Positions 5,950 through 59,020 of a stretch of DNA of 64,000 nt are shown one piece after another. Under the pieces are notes generated by a model. The model was not told where the DNA came from, did not search any database, and saw nothing but the letters and a program-made list of their open reading frames with translations. A program made the translations under genes and the position numbers. The DNA comes from an uncultured Rhodospirillales bacterium. Its GTDB lineage: Bacteria > Pseudomonadota > Alphaproteobacteria > ATCC43930 > CGMCC-115725. Numbering within the stretch: position 1 is the first letter of the stretch; each line of letters opens with the position of its first letter. Location of the stretch: assembly GCA_903828515.1 (NCBI GenBank), contig CAIKMD010000007.1:434001-498000 (forward strand). The letters run 5' to 3'.

Positions 5950-6745
5950 ACTCGACGACGTCGGCGCCGCGATTGGCGTGGCGCAAATCCTCGGCGGCGC
6001 GGCGCAGCTTCAGGAATGCCTGGATGCTGAACGGGAACGAACCGACATAGATCAGGCCGACGACGAGCAGCGTCGCCCAGGGCTCGGTGGTCGCCAACGC
6101 CGCGAGCGCACCGATCGCCAGCAACACCGCCAGCGCCCATTCGCGCGGCACATGGATGCGTTTGAGCGAGAACGTCGGAACCCGGCTGACCATCAGCGCA
6201 CCAATCGCGGCGAGGACAAACGCGCCGAACCATGGATTGCGGAATCCGTCCCAGCCGAATTCGAATTGCAGCAGCATGGGGACGAGGGCGAGACCCGCGC
6301 CCGCCGGTGCCGGTACGCCGGTAAAGAAATTATAGGCGTAGGGCGGTAGATCAGCGCCGATCTGGGTGTTGAAACGCGCCAGGCGCAACGAACAACAGAC
6401 GGTGTAGAGCAAGGCCACGACCCAGCCGAGGCTCGACAGGCTGTGCAGCGTCCAGACATAGAGGATGAGCGCCGGCGCCACGCCGAAGCTGACGAAATCC
6501 GCGAGTGAATCGAGTTCGGCGCCGAACTCCGAGGTGCCCTTCAACAAGCGCGCGACGCGGCCGTCGATACCGTCGAGGATCGCGGCGACGAAGACGGCGA
6601 CAACGGCGGTGCGGTAATCATCGGCCAACGCGAGGCGAATGCCGGTCATTCCGGCGCAGAGCGCGAGCAGCGTCAGGATGTTCGGGATCATCCGGTTCAA
6701 GGATAGGCCGCGCATCGGCCGGACGCGAAGGCGAGGGCGGCGCAT
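5933..6745 (-). CDS. pssA: CDP-diacylglycerol--serine O-phosphatidyltransferase
   Basis: A 270-residue integral membrane enzyme that transfers phosphatidyl from CDP-diacylglycerol to L-serine, giving phosphatidylserine. The CDP-alcohol phosphotransferase signature is intact: DGIDGRVARL followed by GAELDSLADFVSFG, supplying the metal-binding Asp residues. About seven hydrophobic segments follow. It begins one base after the stop of psd, so the two genes form the phosphatidylethanolamine pathway as an operon: PssA makes phosphatidylserine and Psd decarboxylates it. The first residues are Arg-rich; a second Met at residue 11 is an alternative start. The 3' end overlaps the convergent flavin oxidoreductase gene by 17 bases. 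Confidence 0.93.
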   Translation of the reverse strand: MRRPRLRVRPMRGLSLNRMIPNILTLLALCAGMTGIRLALADDYRTAVVAVFVAAILDGIDGRVARLLKGTSEFGAELDSLADFVSFGVAPALILYVWTLHSLSSLGWVVALLYTVCCSLRLARFNTQIGADLPPYAYNFFTGVPAPAGAGLALVPMLLQFEFGWDGFRNPWFGAFVLAAIGALMVSRVPTFSLKRIHVPREWALAVLLAIGALAALATTEPWATLLVVGLIYVGSFPFSIQAFLKLRRAAEDLRHANRGADVVEFKQEG

Positions 6746-53191: not shown

Positions 53192-53329
53192 CGGCGTTTT
53201 CCCGCCCCTGTAACCTTTTGGTTTCACCAGCGAAAATGGCTGTGAGGGTTCCCATCGCGTGGCTGTGACTTGCCGCGAGGGGGACCGTGGCGCTATCGCC
53301 ATGTCGAGCAACGGTCACTGGAGAACGCC

Positions 53330-54304
53330 ATGCTGATCAAGATCAAACAAGGCTGGGAAATCCCCGAGAGCAGGGCGACGCCGGAATCGGTTTTCCACAA
53401 CCGTCGCGACTTGTTGAAGGCGATGGGGATGGGCAGCCTGCTCGCGGTGGGGTCCGGCGCCGCGCCGGCCCTGGCGGCGGCGGCAACCGCCGATCCCGAT
53501 CCGTCGGCCGGGCTTTATCCGGTGAAACGCAACGAGACCTATACGCTCGATCGCCCGATCACCGACGAGAAGCTCTCGACGACCTACAACAATTTCTACG
53601 AATACAGCGACGACAAGGATCTCGCCGACGCGGCGCAGCAATTGAAGATCCGCCCGTGGACATTGGCGATCGACGGCATGGTCGAAAAGCCGATGACAAT
53701 CGGTATCGACGATCTCCTCAAGCAGATGCCGCTCGAGGAACGGCTTTATCGCCATCGTTGCGTCGAGGCGTGGTCGATGGCGGTGCCGTGGTCGGGCTTT
53801 CCGCTGAAAGCCTTCGTCGCGATGGCGAAGCCCCTGTCGGGCGCGAAATACCTGCAAATGACCACGTTTCAGGACCCCAAGATGGCGCCGGGGCAAAAGT
53901 CGTTCTTCTATCCGTGGCCTTATATCGAGGGCCTGACGATGGAAGAAGCGACCAACGATCTCGCGTTTCTGGTCACCGGCATGTACGGCCATCCGGTGCC
54001 GCGTCAGGATGGCGCGCCGCTGCGTCTCGTCACGCCGTGGAAATATGGATTCAAATCGATCAAATCGATCGTGAAGTTCAGCTTCACCGACAAGCGTCCC
54101 GTGTCGTTCTGGCAGAAGCTGCAATCCAGCGAATACGGCTTCTGGGCCAACGTGAATCCCGAGGTGCCGCATCCGCGCTGGAGCCAGGCAACCGAGCGGG
54201 TGCTCGGCACCGGCGAGCGCAAGCCGACCCTGATGTGGAACGGCTATGGCGAACACGTCGCGCATCTCTATGACGGGATCAAGGGAGAGCGCCTGTTCAC
54301 GTAA
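53330..54304 (+). CDS. msrP: Periplasmic methionine sulfoxide reductase, molybdopterin subunit
   Basis: A 324-residue oxidoreductase of the sulfite-oxidase fold that repairs oxidised Met in periplasmic proteins. A twin-arginine signal (HNRRDLLKAMGMGSLLAVGS) is followed by AAPALA. The molybdenum-ligand Cys is in RHRCVEAWSMAVPWSGF. Other blocks are TYNNFYEYSDDKDLADAAQQ, YGHPVPRQDGAPLRLVTPWK and YGFKSIKSIVKFSF. MsrP normally receives electrons from the haem membrane protein MsrQ, but no msrQ gene lies next to it here. The ATG at 53330 gives the standard N-terminus (KIKQGWEIPESRATPE). Confidence 0.95.
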   Translation: MLIKIKQGWEIPESRATPESVFHNRRDLLKAMGMGSLLAVGSGAAPALAAAATADPDPSAGLYPVKRNETYTLDRPITDEKLSTTYNNFYEYSDDKDLADAAQQLKIRPWTLAIDGMVEKPMTIGIDDLLKQMPLEERLYRHRCVEAWSMAVPWSGFPLKAFVAMAKPLSGAKYLQMTTFQDPKMAPGQKSFFYPWPYIEGLTMEEATNDLAFLVTGMYGHPVPRQDGAPLRLVTPWKYGFKSIKSIVKFSFTDKRPVSFWQKLQSSEYGFWANVNPEVPHPRWSQATERVLGTGERKPTLMWNGYGEHVAHLYDGIKGERLFT

Positions 54305-54359
54305 TCAACGGCTAGGCCTATGAATCTCCGTGATTTAGCGAGGAGTCGCCTAGAACCTG

Positions 54360-54388
54360 TTGTTAACTCATGATTCTTCTGGTAGGAT
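54360..54388 (+). promoter_or_regulatory. Candidate promoter of the glycine-zipper lipoprotein gene
   Basis: TTGTTA (54360-54365) and TAGGAT (54383-54388) are separated by 17 bases. The start would lie near 54395, about 25 bases before the ATG, and GAAGGGG serves as ribosome site. A CTAGGC/GCCTAG dyad (54312-54353) lies just upstream. Confidence 0.55.
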
Positions 54389-54419
54389 ATCCTTAGCGAA
54401 TTCCTGAAGGGGTCATCCC

Positions 54420-54656
54420 ATGCGTGTCTCCGTCGCCTTTGTCCTATCTGCCGCGTTGCTGCTGTCGGCCTGCGGCCAGACGCCGACCGACCGGGCGCTC
54501 ACCGGCGCCGGCTTCGGCGCGGGTGGCGGCGCCATTATCGGCGCCCTGCTGGGCGCGCCGATGATCGGGGCGCTGGTGGGCGGCGCGGTTGGCGCCACGG
54601 CCGGCGCCGCGACCGATCCGTCGCAGATTTATCTCGGCGCACCGGTCTGGAAGTAA
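54420..54656 (+). CDS. Small glycine-zipper lipoprotein
   Basis: A 78-residue protein. The signal VAFVLSAALLLSAC contains a lipobox with the Cys at residue 18. The mature part has a glycine zipper (GAGFGAGGGAIIGALLGA, then GALVGGAVGATAGAATD), which can pack in a membrane as in SlyB/Rcp-like or YMGG-like proteins, and a short polar end. Outer-membrane location and an envelope-stress role are plausible. It has its own promoter and ends 10 bases before the convergent kinase gene. Confidence 0.75.
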   Translation: MRVSVAFVLSAALLLSACGQTPTDRALTGAGFGAGGGAIIGALLGAPMIGALVGGAVGATAGAATDPSQIYLGAPVWK

Positions 54657-54666
54657 CGCTGTTTTT

Positions 54667-55530
54667 TCAGTGCGTTGAGGCCAAAGCTGCGAAAGCGGCG
54701 ATGGCGTCGTCGAGACGGTCATAGGTGAAGCGGTAACAGCCGCTGCGATCCATGATGTCGGCCAGCAGGCGGAAACCGTCCGCCCCATGCAGGCTGTAAT
54801 TCATCGCGTTATGCGCGAGTTCCATCACCCCGGCGGCTTTCGACCACGGCGTGAGTTGTGCCATCGTACCCTTCTGCCAGCGCGGAAACACGATCCATCC
54901 AACCGGGGCTGCCTCGCTGACCCGGGCCATGCTGTCCTCGGGCGCCCGCATCAGGGCGACCGTGCCTTTGACCGTATCGGCGATCTCGGCACTGAAGACG
55001 GCGTCGGGGGCGAAGCCGCGCATGATGCCGATCGACTGGTTCTTCAGGTTGATCGGCCGCGCCAGCGGCACGACCTTGCCGTCGCCCGGACGAATTAGCG
55101 CCAGCTCGTCGGATAGGAGGCGCCATCCGCTGCGCGTCAGCGCCGCGGCGAGGGTGCTTTTGCCGGCACCGGGCGCGCCCGGCAGGATGACGACGCGACC
55201 GTTGCGTTCGATCGCCGCCGCGTGAACCACGAGGTATTGGTGCGCTTGCCCGGCGATCGCGTAATTGAGGCCCCATTCGAACATCGGCAGGGCCTGCGAT
55301 TGCGGCAGCGGCTTGAACAGGCTTTCGCCGTCGAGCAGAAACCGCGCCTGACGCCCGACGAAGCGCCGCGCGCCTTCGCCCGGCATCAAGGCGACATGAA
55401 AATCGGCATAGGACGCGTGGTCGGCGAATACCGCGCGCGGATAAAGCTGACGCAATCCGTCGACCAGCGCGCCGAACGGCGTCTCGAGCGTCGCGGTGAA
55501 CGGGCCAAGGCGCAGCGCCAGCGTGTTCAT
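54667..55530 (-). CDS. HprK-related kinase A (HPr-rel-A system)
   Basis: A 287-residue protein. The C-terminal half has the HPr kinase/phosphorylase-like P-loop LPGAPGAGKSTLAAALTRSG (core GxxGxGKS at residues 118-125), preceded by the conserved HAAAIERNG and followed by WRLLSDELALIRPGDG, whose Asp matches the HprK acidic site. The N-terminal 100 residues form a separate domain without known motif. The pattern matches the HPr-rel-A kinase family rather than true HprK, and no HPr or PTS gene is near. The ATG overlaps the PqqD-like gene's stop as ATGA. Its substrate is unknown; the adjacent exported protein is the obvious candidate. Confidence 0.82.
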   Translation of the reverse strand: MNTLALRLGPFTATLETPFGALVDGLRQLYPRAVFADHASYADFHVALMPGEGARRFVGRQARFLLDGESLFKPLPQSQALPMFEWGLNYAIAGQAHQYLVVHAAAIERNGRVVILPGAPGAGKSTLAAALTRSGWRLLSDELALIRPGDGKVVPLARPINLKNQSIGIMRGFAPDAVFSAEIADTVKGTVALMRAPEDSMARVSEAAPVGWIVFPRWQKGTMAQLTPWSKAAGVMELAHNAMNYSLHGADGFRLLADIMDRSGCYRFTYDRLDDAIAAFAALASTH

Positions 55531-55826
55531 GCCGCCTCGAGCAAGGACAGGCGTTGGAACATGTCGAGCGTGCGCCGGATCGCCGCCGGGCCGTCGACGG
55601 TCGTCGGCAACTCGATGCGCTGCAGCGCGGTTGCTTCGATCTCGGGCTCGTTCGCGGCTTCGGTGCTTAGGAGGCGAAACAGCCACGCGGCCAGATCGGC
55701 GAAATGATGCGTGTCGCCGGTGGTGTTGCTGTAGCAGACGATTTCGTCGTCCCAGGCGCGCCAGAGCACGTCGGGTGCGATCCGCACTTTCGTCGCGCTC
55801 CCATCCTGCGTCGGGAGGCCGGGCAT
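55527..55826 (-). CDS. PqqD-like peptide chaperone of HPr-rel-A system
   Basis: A 99-residue protein with the PqqD-like winged-helix pattern: VRIAPDVLWRAWDDEIVCYS, TTGDTHHFADLAAWLFRLL, then a helical end IRRTLDMFQRLSLLEA. PqqD homologues bind precursor peptides and present them to modifying enzymes, so this one probably links the kinase to its substrate. It sits between the exported Cys-rich protein gene (1 base apart) and the kinase (4-base overlap). No radical SAM enzyme is encoded nearby. Confidence 0.8.
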   Translation of the reverse strand: MPGLPTQDGSATKVRIAPDVLWRAWDDEIVCYSNTTGDTHHFADLAAWLFRLLSTEAANEPEIEATALQRIELPTTVDGPAAIRRTLDMFQRLSLLEAA

Positions 55827-55827
55827 G

Positions 55828-56448
55828 TCAGGTGTTGATGTTGAGCGGCGCGAGCTGCGTCGTGAGCGTGTCGAGGGCTTGCTGCGCGGCGGACTGGTCT
55901 TTGGGCTTCGACAGCCAGATCGTCTGCGTCATCGACTGAACCTGGCTCAGCGTTTTCGAATAATTGTTCGGCGCGAAGGCGGCTGCGTTGAGCAGTCCCG
56001 CGCCGATCTGTTCGCCGAACAACGCGGCATTGAGGGTGACGTTCTTGCCGTTGATCTTGCACTGGATCGACAGCGTGCCTTGCAGCGAGGCAAGCAGCGA
56101 TTGGTTGCCGCAGGTCCAGACACTGCCGACGCCCGGTGCGCCGCAGGCGCTGGTGAACGTGGTCGAGGGAAACATGGCCGTGCGCGGCCAAAGCTGGTTG
56201 GTGCCGGAGAGATTGCACCAGGTGAGCGGGCTCATGCCGCAATTGGTGCCGGCGGGAAGCGGATGGGAAAGATTGCCCGACAAGGCGTTCGACACCGAGC
56301 ACTGGCCGGTAAAGGCCAGCGCGGGCCGGCTGGCCAGCGTCACCGCAACCGGAATGCCACCCAGAAGAAGGCGCCGTCCGGGCGAGGCCGGACGATCCGT
56401 GGTCGCGTCTGCCGTGTGGTCAGGTGAATTCGTTGGTTGATCTGTCAT
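55828..56448 (-). CDS. Exported six-Cys protein in HPr-rel-A cassette
   Basis: A 206-residue protein I cannot place in a named family. A Thr/Pro-rich leader is followed by a twin-Arg-like signal (SPGRRLLLGGIPVAVTLASR, ending PALA), so export by Tat or Sec is likely. The mature part contains six Cys (in GQCSVS, TNCGMS, TWCNL, SACGAP, WTCGN and IQCKIN), many Ser, Thr and Asn, and conserved-looking SNALSGNLSHP. It is the first gene of the three-gene cassette, and its stop lies one base before the PqqD-like start. Being exported and Cys-rich, it is a candidate substrate of the neighbouring kinase and chaperone, but this is inference. Confidence 0.6.
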   Translation of the reverse strand: MTDQPTNSPDHTADATTDRPASPGRRLLLGGIPVAVTLASRPALAFTGQCSVSNALSGNLSHPLPAGTNCGMSPLTWCNLSGTNQLWPRTAMFPSTTFTSACGAPGVGSVWTCGNQSLLASLQGTLSIQCKINGKNVTLNAALFGEQIGAGLLNAAAFAPNNYSKTLSQVQSMTQTIWLSKPKDQSAAQQALDTLTTQLAPLNINT

Positions 56449-56508
56449 CGCTGAACCGAAGCAAGGCTCCAGTTTTAGCGATGAAGCTTAACATTTCGTG
56501 AGGGTCGC

Positions 56509-56961
56509 CTAGGCCGAGGCGCTGCCGCGATGCTCGCTCAGCCAGTCGTGAAGGTTAACCACGACACGGTCGTTGCTCGGCGCGGGCACGGCGCGCGGCT
56601 GGGGCCGGGCCTGCGACGCCGGTTGTTTGGCGATGGCAAGCCGGATGGCGGCGATCGAGGCCTGTTCGTCGAGTTCGGGCAGGACCGGGATTTCCGAGGG
56701 ATCGGCATCGACTTCGAATTCTTCGGGCTTCCACGGCGCGAAGACCTTGCGCGGCGCGCGCTGTTCGCGCGGATCGCTGCTGCACGCCCAAAGCAAGGTC
56801 AGCGTCAGGCCGACGAAGGCAGCGGCCAATCCGGCGATGCCGAAGCCCATCGCTTCCGGTGCCGCCGTCGCCGACATCGCGACGATGGCTGCTGCGCCGT
56901 TCGCGGCGATGGCCAGTGTTCCGACCGTCATGGCGATTGCGATTGGTTTATGGTCGCTCAT
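56509..56961 (-). CDS. Small membrane protein with cytoplasmic-type tail
   Basis: A 150-residue protein I do not recognise. Two hydrophobic segments (IAMTVGTLAIAANGAAAIVA and FGIAGLAAAFVGLTLTLLWA) form a hairpin in the membrane. A roughly 90-residue polar tail follows, Pro-rich with clustered acidic residues and ending VVVNLHDWLSEHRG. It is upstream of the HPr-rel-A cassette on the same strand, 60 bases away, and could share its transcript. GAGGG lies before the ATG. Confidence 0.5.
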   Translation of the reverse strand: MSDHKPIAIAMTVGTLAIAANGAAAIVAMSATAAPEAMGFGIAGLAAAFVGLTLTLLWACSSDPREQRAPRKVFAPWKPEEFEVDADPSEIPVLPELDEQASIAAIRLAIAKQPASQARPQPRAVPAPSNDRVVVNLHDWLSEHRGSASA

Positions 56962-56969
56962 CGGGGGCC

Positions 56970-57000
56970 CTCGTTAATCTTCATTAATATTAATAAAGCC
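56970..57000. promoter_or_regulatory. AT-rich divergent promoter region with repeated TTAA
   Basis: Three TTAA words (56974, 56984, 56990) and the palindrome ATTAATATTAAT lie between two divergent small membrane-protein genes. Spacings of 6 and 2 bases do not match the CtrA pattern exactly, so the regulator is unclear. Confidence 0.3.
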
Positions 57001-57158
57001 ATGTCGGGGCACGCGTCTAGAGTCGGTGTTCTTTACAGGCCGTACTCTGGACCGACACGCGATGCCGGAAATCCGCCAGTGGCGCTGCTCTTGCAATGTT
57101 TCCTGGCGAGATCACACGCGCCGGAACCGCTGGGAACCGCGCGGATAGGAGAACGGAC

Positions 57159-57653
57159 ATGGCTCATATCGAGGCATTCGACGACCACACCCCATCGGCT
57201 GTCGGCGCGATGGAAACGCTTTACTGGTGGCGCAATCGAATGCCGACCGAAACGCTGGGCGAGCATCCGGGTGTCACGGTTGCCCGCCTCGCCACCATCG
57301 CCAACCTGACGACCCCGATCGGGATCGAAAATCTCCCCCGCAATTACATGCGCGCGCGTGTTTCGCGCGAGCCGACGCCGGATACGCTTCACGCGGCGGC
57401 GGCCGATGTCGAAGTTTTGGCGGCGATCCGCGCCGAGAAAACCAATGCGACCTTCGCCGTGGCGACCGGCTTGCTGGCAACGACGGCACCGGCGGCTGCA
57501 GCCGCTTATGCCTTCACGGTGCATCACTCGGTGGCGCTGGCCTTTGCCATCGCGGGAATGCTGGCGGCGTGCTTCGCGATGGTTCAGGCGGTTCGCGGCC
57601 TCGTCACCGCGCACAAACTCACACCGCCCGATTTCGTGACCCGCGACGCCTGA
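57159..57653 (+). CDS. Small membrane protein of unknown function
   Basis: A 164-residue protein. The N-terminal half is polar (AMETLYWWRNRMPTETLGEH, then RLATIANLTTPIGIENLP). Two hydrophobic segments near residues 105-145 (AVATGLLATTAPAAAAAYAF and VALAFAIAGMLAACFAMVQA) form a membrane hairpin. I chose the ATG at 57159 because AGGAGA is ideally placed before it; an in-frame ATG at 57096 has none. It is divergent from the other small membrane protein and precedes the DoxX gene by 54 bases. Confidence 0.5.
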   Translation: MAHIEAFDDHTPSAVGAMETLYWWRNRMPTETLGEHPGVTVARLATIANLTTPIGIENLPRNYMRARVSREPTPDTLHAAAADVEVLAAIRAEKTNATFAVATGLLATTAPAAAAAYAFTVHHSVALAFAIAGMLAACFAMVQAVRGLVTAHKLTPPDFVTRDA

Positions 57654-57707
57654 CGCAACGCGCGCGGGACTTGCGTCGCGGACCGTGCCTGCCTATGGCA
57701 CGGCTCC

Positions 57708-58166
57708 ATGACGCCGCTCGCTTTCACATCGCTTGGCACTTTTGCCGATAGTCTCGTGCCCTGGGTCACGGCGCTGTTGCGCGCGATCTGCGGCCTGGCG
57801 CTGGTGCCGCATGGGTTGCGGGCTTTCTTCGGTTACTTTCCCAACACCGGTTCGCGCATCCTGAGCCCCGCGCTCCTCGCGGCCGGTCTCGAACGCTCCG
57901 GCTTTCGCGGGCGCTATTGGATTTGGATTGTCGCGATCGTCGAATTCGTCGCCGGACCGTTGCTGGCGCTCGGCCTCTTCACGCGCCTCGACGCGTTTCT
58001 GATCTTCGTGTTTTTTCTTGGCGCGGCCTATGACCACGCGCGCTTCGACGGGTATTTCTGGAACAAGCTCGGGATGGAATACCCGATGATGTGGGCCGCG
58101 GTCGCGCTGTACTTCGCCTGCGCGGGCGGCGGTCCCCTGTCGCTCGACGCGGCCTGGTGGGGTTAG
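57708..58166 (+). CDS. DoxX family membrane protein
   Basis: A 152-residue protein with four hydrophobic segments. DoxX-type patterns are ALLRAICGLALVPHGLRAFF, WIVAIVEFVAGPLLALGLFT and LDAFLIFVFFLGAAYDHARF. Family members are membrane proteins of varied or unknown role, some in redox stress or quinone-linked oxidation. The 3' end overlaps the convergent alpha/beta hydrolase gene by 4 bases. Confidence 0.8.
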   Translation: MTPLAFTSLGTFADSLVPWVTALLRAICGLALVPHGLRAFFGYFPNTGSRILSPALLAAGLERSGFRGRYWIWIVAIVEFVAGPLLALGLFTRLDAFLIFVFFLGAAYDHARFDGYFWNKLGMEYPMMWAAVALYFACAGGGPLSLDAAWWG

Positions 58167-59020
58167 GCGCCGACCGTCTCGCGCTTGATGAAGGCGACCA
58201 TCTTTTTCACCGCGTCCTTGGCGATGTCTGACTCCGGCAAGGTGCGGATCGCATCATATTTCGGACCATAGAACAGCACGTTCTCGATCGTGCCGCCGAG
58301 CTTGCGGTAATTGCCGATGAACTGTTCCATGAAGCGGCGCGGATGCAGTTCGTCGTCCGGGTTCTGCACATACAGGATGTCGGGCGTCTCGACCTTGTCG
58401 CCGCGCTCGAGCGCGAGGTTGGGACTGCCTTCGCCCATCGCGTCCTCGGTCAACCAATAGCGGTCCTGGTGCGCGATCGCGCCGCCGCGATTCTGATAGA
58501 CCTGCTCGCCGGCGGGTTTCGCCTTGCGGTCGTGATAGCGCCCCAAGGGACAGATCACCGGCCACAGGCTCACGACGTAAGAGACATGCGCATCGAAACC
58601 GCCCGCCAGCGGAATCGTCGCGTAGCGCGGGTCGTCGGGCTTCAGGGCGTTGAGAACCACGAGGTGCCCGCCGCTCGACGTGCCCATGCTGCCGACCCAT
58701 TCGGGTTTGGTGTCGAACCGCGCGGCATTGGCCTTCAACCAGCGCACGCCGTAATTCACGTCGGCGACCGAACCGGGATAGGTCGCGACCGGCGGGTTGC
58801 GGAAATCGAGCGCGGCGACCACCACGCCGCCGCGCGCCACCGCGCTGTTGATCGTGTCGTTGTTGGCGCGGTTGCCTTCGCACCACGCGCCGCCATGCGC
58901 CTCGATCACCGCCGGGAACGGACCCTTGCCGCGCGGCCGATGGATGCGGGCCATGATCGCCGTGTCGCCGTGGCGCAGATATTCGACTTCTTCGATGTCG
59001 ACGTCGTAGCTGTCGGTCAT
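58163..59020 (-). CDS. Alpha/beta hydrolase (HSL/esterase-like)
   Basis: A 285-residue hydrolase. The oxyanion-hole motif is VIEAHGGAWCEGNRANND and the Ser nucleophile sits in SMGTSSGGHLVVLNAL. The Asp is likely in YVQNPDDELHPRRFMEQF; a clear catalytic His is harder to assign. No signal peptide is present. It begins one base after the stop of the hydantoinase-B-like gene, so the two are probably co-expressed with the ABC importer upstream. Ester, lactone or amide substrates are possible. Confidence 0.82.
   Translation of the reverse strand: MTDSYDVDIEEVEYLRHGDTAIMARIHRPRGKGPFPAVIEAHGGAWCEGNRANNDTINSAVARGGVVVAALDFRNPPVATYPGSVADVNYGVRWLKANAARFDTKPEWVGSMGTSSGGHLVVLNALKPDDPRYATIPLAGGFDAHVSYVVSLWPVICPLGRYHDRKAKPAGEQVYQNRGGAIAHQDRYWLTEDAMGEGSPNLALERGDKVETPDILYVQNPDDELHPRRFMEQFIGNYRKLGGTIENVLFYGPKYDAIRTLPESDIAKDAVKKMVAFIKRETVGA

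Follow-up and report, generated by a model that had tools for sequence, protein, structure and literature searches.

The window (the whole 64,000-nucleotide stretch analyzed here, from an uncultured Rhodospirillales bacterium) carries three closely packed genes on its minus strand. The first (55828..56448) encodes a type I exported partner of 206 amino acids with six cysteines, here called X, which is the candidate substrate of the system and begins with a twin-arginine leader (GRRLLLGGIPVAVTLASRPALA; residues 1-45, 56314..56448) containing R25, R26 and an AxA at residues 43-45. It is followed by a PqqD-like peptide chaperone of 99 amino acids (55527..55826) and an HprK-related kinase A of 287 amino acids (54667..55530). 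When read as minus-strand ORFs, X and PqqD are separated by a single spacer base, 55827, and PqqD and the kinase share a 4-base ATGA overlap, confirming the compact cassette with 1-base and 4-base junctions reported in a preliminary description of this DNA. Directly upstream of X on the same strand, a 150-amino-acid ORF without a family (56509..56961) is, judging by its adjacency, possibly the first gene of the operon.

Against TIGR04352 (HprK_rel_A, cut-off 200) the kinase scored 352.6 bits, and against TIGR04353 (cut-off 35) the PqqD-like protein scored 38.8. As both exceed the curated NCBIfam cut-offs, they constitute an HPr-rel-A pair, and the identities first proposed for these two proteins held. 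The exported protein, in contrast, belongs to no family among those searched: X of the window gave no NCBIfam match up to E 1, including the models for PEP-CTERM sorting signals, and came near no Pfam cut-off. In all, none of 11 X proteins compared with Pfam or of four compared with NCBIfam scored over a cut-off, and the X at L133 reached 17.1 bits to a TAT-signal model (cut-off 24). The six flanking genes tested at 53270-59020 included no radical SAM or PTS family member and no lasso cyclase or leader protease. The HPr of this genome is encoded on another contig, C3, beside an HprK-like ORF (75.8 bits to TIGR00679, below the cut-off of 240; L002, L296), so that the earlier statement that radical SAM, HPr and PTS genes are lacking nearby stands for HPr and, within the six flanking genes, for the other two.

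The catalytic residues expected of an HprK-type kinase appear intact. H103, the GxGKST of the Walker A motif (PGAPGAGKST, residues 117-126, 55153..55182), D141 and E142 were invariant in an alignment of 16 kinases, and the P-loop, His, Lys and Asp positions (H103, P-loop and D141 among them) coincide with those of the HprK chains 2qmh and 1jb1 in a weak alignment (E 0.079). Asp141-Glu142 (55105..55110) stands where HprK has an Asp-Asp pair, and the kinase scored 19.9 bits to the HprK model TIGR00679 against its cut-off of 240. The nearest kinase in the 80-locus set described below, at L206, is from another uncultured Rhodospirillales bacterium and is 73% identical.

Of 43 genomes from the order, 9 encode a kinase over the TIGR04352 cut-off; the corresponding counts were 11 of 385 in a class sample and 61 of 398 in a phylum sample. 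Wider stretches were taken from 60 of the 77 distinct kinase genomes, the window included (60-locus set), and a profile of the window-type kinase was used to search 84,980 species genomes, from which the best 80 of 578 relatives were retained (80-locus set). Since the latter was drawn as the best relatives of the window-type kinase profile, it is biased to type I X, and the two sets are not wholly independent because the records L206, L207 and L222 occur in both. The gene order of the cassette was repeated in most of the 140 loci (60 plus 80, with the window's own counted and three records double) and is more than chance.

An ORF with a twin-arginine leader was part of the cassette at 55 of 60 loci, that is, 54 after hand checks plus L088, where a short, weak X (75 amino acids, 20.9 bits) lies downstream of the fourth gene; at L112, X is on the opposite strand. 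The ORFs initially chosen by position at L088, L127 and L137 turned out not to be X and were discarded. A cassette X was missing at L114, L115, L119, L127 and L137 in this set, but X was present elsewhere in four of these five genomes, with a PqqD gene adjoining it in three of the four. These four are the genomes of L114, L115 and L119, and that of L127, in which a weak X (31.6 bits) adjoins a PqqD gene at L205. For L137 no X was found. By HMM, PqqD was detected in 49 of the 60 stretches and undetected at 11, and the window's own 38.8 bits lie near the cut-off; the nucleotidyltransferase encoded by the fourth gene was likewise detected in 49 of 60 and absent at 11, some of them truncated by contig ends. 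Profile searches of the 80-locus set recovered X at 78 loci, and X, PqqD, kinase and nucleotidyltransferase all together at 75. The loci without X or PqqD were L214 and L229, the latter with its contig ending just upstream, and those without the nucleotidyltransferase were L206, L207 and L222, which form the window's own clade.

Genome-wide co-occurrence followed the same pattern. A type I profile (A1) matched 9 of the 43 genomes of the order, exactly the nine kinase-positive ones, and none of the other 34; because the X of all nine genomes had built the profile, the informative part is the 0/34. With the window's X as a lone query, seven genomes of the order were matched, all kinase-positive. 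A type II profile (A2, 20 rows) matched 38 of 398 phylum genomes, all within the 61 kinase genomes and none among the 337 kinase-negative ones, the X and kinase counts being taken as the same 398-genome sample; 18 of the 38 genomes lay outside the profile. Fisher tests gave p = 1.8e-9 (A1, order) and p = 1.9e-37 (A2, phylum), with genome relatedness ignored. Type I was sought in the order and type II in the phylum, where X may have been missed because at most eight candidates were scored per genome. X is therefore a regular component of HPr-rel-A, exclusive to kinase-positive genomes in the samples searched, and the possibility raised at the outset, that homologous kinase-PqqD loci would consistently lack the exported protein, does not describe these loci.

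X was also found away from the kinase, in nine places. A PqqD gene adjoins it in five of them (L195, L197, L198, L200 and L205) and does not in L196 and L201-L203. L201, L202 and L203 (genomes G014 and G042) are extra copies of X, with no PqqD detected beside them and a cassette present in the genome, perhaps pointing to several substrates per kinase. At L271 a tandem arrangement was observed, in which PqqD, kinase, nucleotidyltransferase and X are followed by a second kinase and a second nucleotidyltransferase.

The X proteins, mostly 130-290 amino acids long, comprise three cargo types behind a common kind of leader. The twin-arginine pattern, which was written after seeing X, occurred in 49 of 54 X and in 19 of 702 other ORFs. 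The leader of the window's X, with its AxA, has the sequence features of a Tat substrate, and a TatC gene is present in the genome. When the type I and type II profiles were compared, a 39-column leader alone aligned (probability 95.6, E 1.2e-8). Type II X carry a C-terminal SCWxS motif with an invariant serine (Ser174 in L105 numbering, 20/20), and type III X, known from five loci, are short, with TCFASL or TCYASL near the end; the X of L089, L122 and L129 fit no type well. Of 54 X, 31 had the pattern [ST]C[WFVIY]xS[FLIY] within 45 residues of the C-terminus, compared with 7 of 10,800 shuffles, the types being partly defined by this motif. On a fast tree with long branches, the type of X follows the kinase, with three changes over 129 labeled rows.

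Conservation within type I was assessed in 70 non-redundant sequences. Both arginines of the leader were present in all 70, and C50, S57, C70, G71, W87, L153 and N154 were each found in 61 to 68 (C50 in 66, S57 in 67, C70 in 68). Ser57 (56278..56280), between C50 and C70, is a candidate acceptor residue and is predicted to lie in a low-confidence, probably flexible segment. An AlphaFold2 model of X (mean pLDDT 78) had block means of 80-98 from residue 71 onward and values below 50 at residues 10-49 and 53-62, which cover most of the leader and S57. The type I cargo is thus modeled with confidence as a folded domain of about 135 residues, whereas type II X was modeled poorly (pLDDT 56). Foldseek, run with the window's X, returned no PDB match at E 0.001 or better. 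When the 418 chains listed by Foldseek itself were compared again, the best Z was 3.5, across X residues 83-206, and designed repeat proteins ranked first; the absence of a PDB match does not show a new fold.

These comparisons bear on two features considered in X. Its richness in cysteine was abandoned as a defining trait, as only C50 and C70 are near-invariant in type I and the cysteine count ranges from 2 to 12 among retained X. As for the invariant Ser, Thr or Cys that the preliminary description proposed to look for, C50, C70 and Ser57 are near-invariant within type I, and no single acceptor residue is common to types I and II. A serine at the C-terminus was considered as well, because lasso peptide kinases use the C-terminal serine of their precursors and the window's clade ends in LNIN[ST]. 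It was rejected as a general site: 98 type I sequences have unrelated C-termini, and LNIN[ST] is confined to the window's own clade.

A fourth component was missed in the earlier reading. It is a PF14907 (NTP_transf_5) nucleotidyltransferase, as identified in three representatives, whose gene usually follows the kinase and is unlinked to the cassette in the window's genome and clade. In this genome it lies on contig C9 (G000:C9), adjoining an exosortase-A exopolysaccharide cluster in which XrtA, a glycosyltransferase (TIGR03087), a deacetylase (TIGR03006), TIGR03016, a chain-length determinant and an export protein all score over their cut-offs and a tyrosine kinase falls just below (225.5 against 230.65). 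PF14907 enzymes also accompany other HprK-like kinases. At L292 (10076-10651) a single ORF begins with a PqqD domain (26.5 bits in Pfam, cut-off 23.4), continues with a twin-arginine leader and has a short tail rich in His, and its neighbors are a PF14907 enzyme and an HprK-like kinase (41 bits to the kinase profile, no Pfam match). This ORF resembles a natural chaperone-leader fusion, in a kinase family that is related to that of the window but distinct from it. In L291 and L295, from the same order, an HprK-like kinase and a PF14907 enzyme are found with asparagine-synthase-like genes, so related modules occur in lasso-like settings; a radical SAM/B12-binding gene is also near the L291 pair.

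The link to exosortase-A/PEP-CTERM exopolysaccharide comes mostly from outside the window. Neighboring gene clusters in the 60-locus set scored over the cut-offs for PrsK, PrsR, PrsT, the XrtA amidotransferase and the XrtA chain-length determinant, with a single representative scored for each of the five, so that some members may be other histidine kinases. A glycosyltransferase-like cluster (c4) occurred at 16 of 60 loci and an amidotransferase-like (asparagine-synthase-like) cluster (c3) at 18 of 60, its representative scoring over the cut-off of the exosortase-system model TIGR03108 and under that for lasso cyclase. Exosortase A (TIGR03109) was found over its cut-off in 8 of 9 kinase genomes of the order versus 6 of 34 others (8 of 9 versus 8 of 34 at E 1e-10 or better), and in the phylum sample in 25 of 61 kinase genomes versus 10 of 337 others (Fisher p = 6e-4 for the order and 2e-15 for the phylum, relatedness ignored). 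The remaining 36 of the 61 kinase genomes in the phylum sample fell below the exosortase-A cut-off. X thus shares loci and genomes with the PEP-CTERM/exosortase A system and its PrsK-PrsR-PrsT proteins, but it matches no PEP-CTERM model, its leader is of the twin-arginine kind, and it does not belong to the PEP-CTERM family.

Promoter elements extend this association. For PEP-CTERM genes of proteobacteria, an upstream 17-nt element has been described that ends in TTTACA and precedes a sigma-54 site by about 63 nt; the activator proposed for it is PrsR (available text of PMC1569441). A sigma-54 site (at most one mismatch) was located near the X start at 32 of 132 loci versus 12 of 496 other called ORFs. 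The 17-nt pattern TGTCRRN5TTTACA, derived from these same loci, was found upstream of type I X in 53 of 101 regions as an exact match and in 77 of 101 with at most one mismatch, the 101 including three duplicates and three regions from X of unclear type; the reverse strand gave 1 and 4, respectively, and a single shuffle gave none at either setting. When one mismatch was allowed, it was found at 1 of 26 type II and 0 of 5 type III regions. A sigma-54 site with at most two mismatches was present at 67 of 98 type I loci, and at 41 of those 67 TTTACA lay 30-95 nt before it, compared with 2 for the reverse complement and a shuffled mean of 1.4. The resemblance to the motif in the available text of PMC1569441 rests on length, the TTTACA end and spacing. 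Most type I X genes elsewhere thus have promoters that resemble those of the PEP-CTERM regulon, and the window's X is not among them, as no PrsR/sigma-54 promoter lies upstream of X in the window's clade. The window does contain, on the plus strand, a candidate PrsR-type site at 57021-57037 and a sigma-54 -24/-12 site at 57080-57094, each with one mismatch. This pair, which sits close to the cassette between divergent genes, points away from X and reads into an uncharacterized ORF of 185 amino acids (57096-57653). No other pair of this kind occurs in the 64 kb, and 20 Markov-1 controls averaged 0.05 pairs. The sister genome L080 has a like pair at 6264 (-), and the stretches tested from the relatives L082, L084, L085, L192 and L193 have none.

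The composition and co-occurrence of the cassette, the shared leader, the intact kinase residues and the linkage to polysaccharide loci, together with the promoter elements shared in other genomes, form the computed basis for interpreting this system. The best explanation, and in our judgement probably the correct one, is a protein-modification-and-export system with PqqD docking, phosphorylation by the kinase, possible further decoration, Tat export and a role with polysaccharide. Binding, phosphorylation, decoration, export and the polysaccharide role, all of which we infer, would proceed as follows. X would be made with its twin-arginine leader, which the PqqD-like protein would bind, presenting X to the HprK-type kinase. 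The kinase would then phosphorylate a hydroxyl residue of X, for which the best candidates are Ser57 in type I, in the low-confidence segment that directly follows the leader, and the serine of the C-terminal SCWxS in type II. The PF14907 nucleotidyltransferase, encoded elsewhere in the genome, may then attach a sugar or a nucleotide to that phosphate. Folded, modified X would leave by the Tat pathway and act outside the inner membrane alongside the exosortase-A exopolysaccharide. Points against this explanation are the lack of an acceptor residue shared by types I and II, the confinement of the C-terminal serine to the window's clade, the unlinked nucleotidyltransferase and the absence of the PrsR/sigma-54 promoter upstream of X in that clade, the 11 of 60 loci that lack the nucleotidyltransferase and the 11 with PqqD undetected, the window's PqqD score close to its cut-off, and the 36 of 61 phylum kinase genomes not over the exosortase-A cut-off. 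X is the best candidate substrate of the HPr-rel-A kinase on these comparisons, and the substrate idea, which had been drawn from adjacency, is much strengthened. A more specific and rather unlikely version is that X proteins are exported phosphoglycoproteins, phosphorylated in the cytoplasm and given a sugar on the phosphate by PF14907, with the folded conjugate exported via Tat and its sugar phosphate anchoring or priming the exosortase-A exopolysaccharide. If true, these would be a widespread, undescribed class, with a protein-polysaccharide linkage of a new kind.

A close parallel to the favored explanation is in lasso peptide biosynthesis, where the B1 protein is PqqD-like and binds the leader of the lasso precursor. 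The lasso tailoring modules (PadeK/ThcoK/SyanK, B1 and PsmN) likewise place a kinase and a nucleotidyltransferase in the cluster of the precursor gene; in the available text of PMC9266682, PadeK phosphorylates a serine of its lasso precursor, the C-terminal serine being the one that lasso kinases use, and PsmN of pseudomycoidin is linked to hexose addition on phosphoserine. The lasso precursor is a short peptide, whereas X is a longer protein that carries a Tat leader and whose cargo, at least in type I, is predicted to fold, and the six flanking genes tested in the window include neither a lasso cyclase nor a leader protease. In short, the best reading by analogy is that lasso-peptide tailoring may here be applied to a full-size protein.

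Other explanations can be set against this one. X could belong to the system and not be its substrate. It would then be an effector or matrix protein that is exported, and the target of the kinase would be some other protein, or else a sugar or lipid intermediate in the pathway to the polysaccharide. The glycosyltransferase-like and amidotransferase-like neighbors c4 and c3 would suit such a role, as would the want of one acceptor residue across all X types. However, PqqD stays beside X in more than half of the places away from the kinase, X type follows the kinase tree, and the kinases of lasso clusters phosphorylate the precursor (available text of PMC9266682); we regard this alternative as possible but doubtful. 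PqqD and the kinase could instead be a Tat quality-control or chaperone pair, the P-loop protein serving as an ATP-driven release switch and X not being lastingly modified. A Tat leader is what type I and type II X have in common, and some Tat substrates do have leader-binding chaperones. The invariant HprK-type catalytic residues and the usual nucleotidyltransferase partner suggest chemistry, however, and make this pair an unlikely one.

It is less likely still that X is a RiPP-like natural-product precursor from which the leader is removed, the modified core being the product. PqqD, kinase and nucleotidyltransferase occur together as in lasso clusters, unrelated cargo sits behind a common leader, and the c3 neighbors are asparagine-synthase-like, but against this stand the confidently modeled folded domain of type I, the six flanking genes tested in the window, among which no lasso cyclase or protease was found, and the c3 representative, which falls with the exosortase system and under the lasso cyclase cut-off. 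That the kinase is an ordinary paralogue of HPr kinase that targets HPr, as its weak match to the HprK model might suggest, is hardly credible with a score so far under the cut-off and with contig C3 of the genome carrying both HPr and an HprK-like ORF.

Searches of the open-access literature found no paper for HPr-rel-A, its model names or HprK with PqqD, nor for PF14907 and related phrases. Exosortase and HprK terms occurred together in none of the matches listed, and twin-arginine with PqqD, or RiPP recognition element with kinase and exopolysaccharide, gave nothing relevant by titles and abstract starts among the matches listed. HPr-rel-A itself is already named in NCBIfam; the comparisons here add a recurrent partner, a fourth gene, a candidate residue and a candidate regulon. 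Of the interpretation first offered for this DNA, the HPr-rel-A pair and the exported partner are retained, the latter as a regular one, and cysteine-richness as the defining property is given up. Together, the partner, fourth gene, residue and regulon turn a kinase family without an assigned role into a directly testable hypothesis. A kinase, a carrier and their usual transferase that, in the genomes examined, occur nearly always with a twin-arginine protein, and often near polysaccharide genes, point to a putative modify-then-export system. If this is true, PqqD-guided modification would extend beyond small peptides to full-size proteins bound for Tat export, and would be part of the surface-polysaccharide biology of many environmental proteobacteria.
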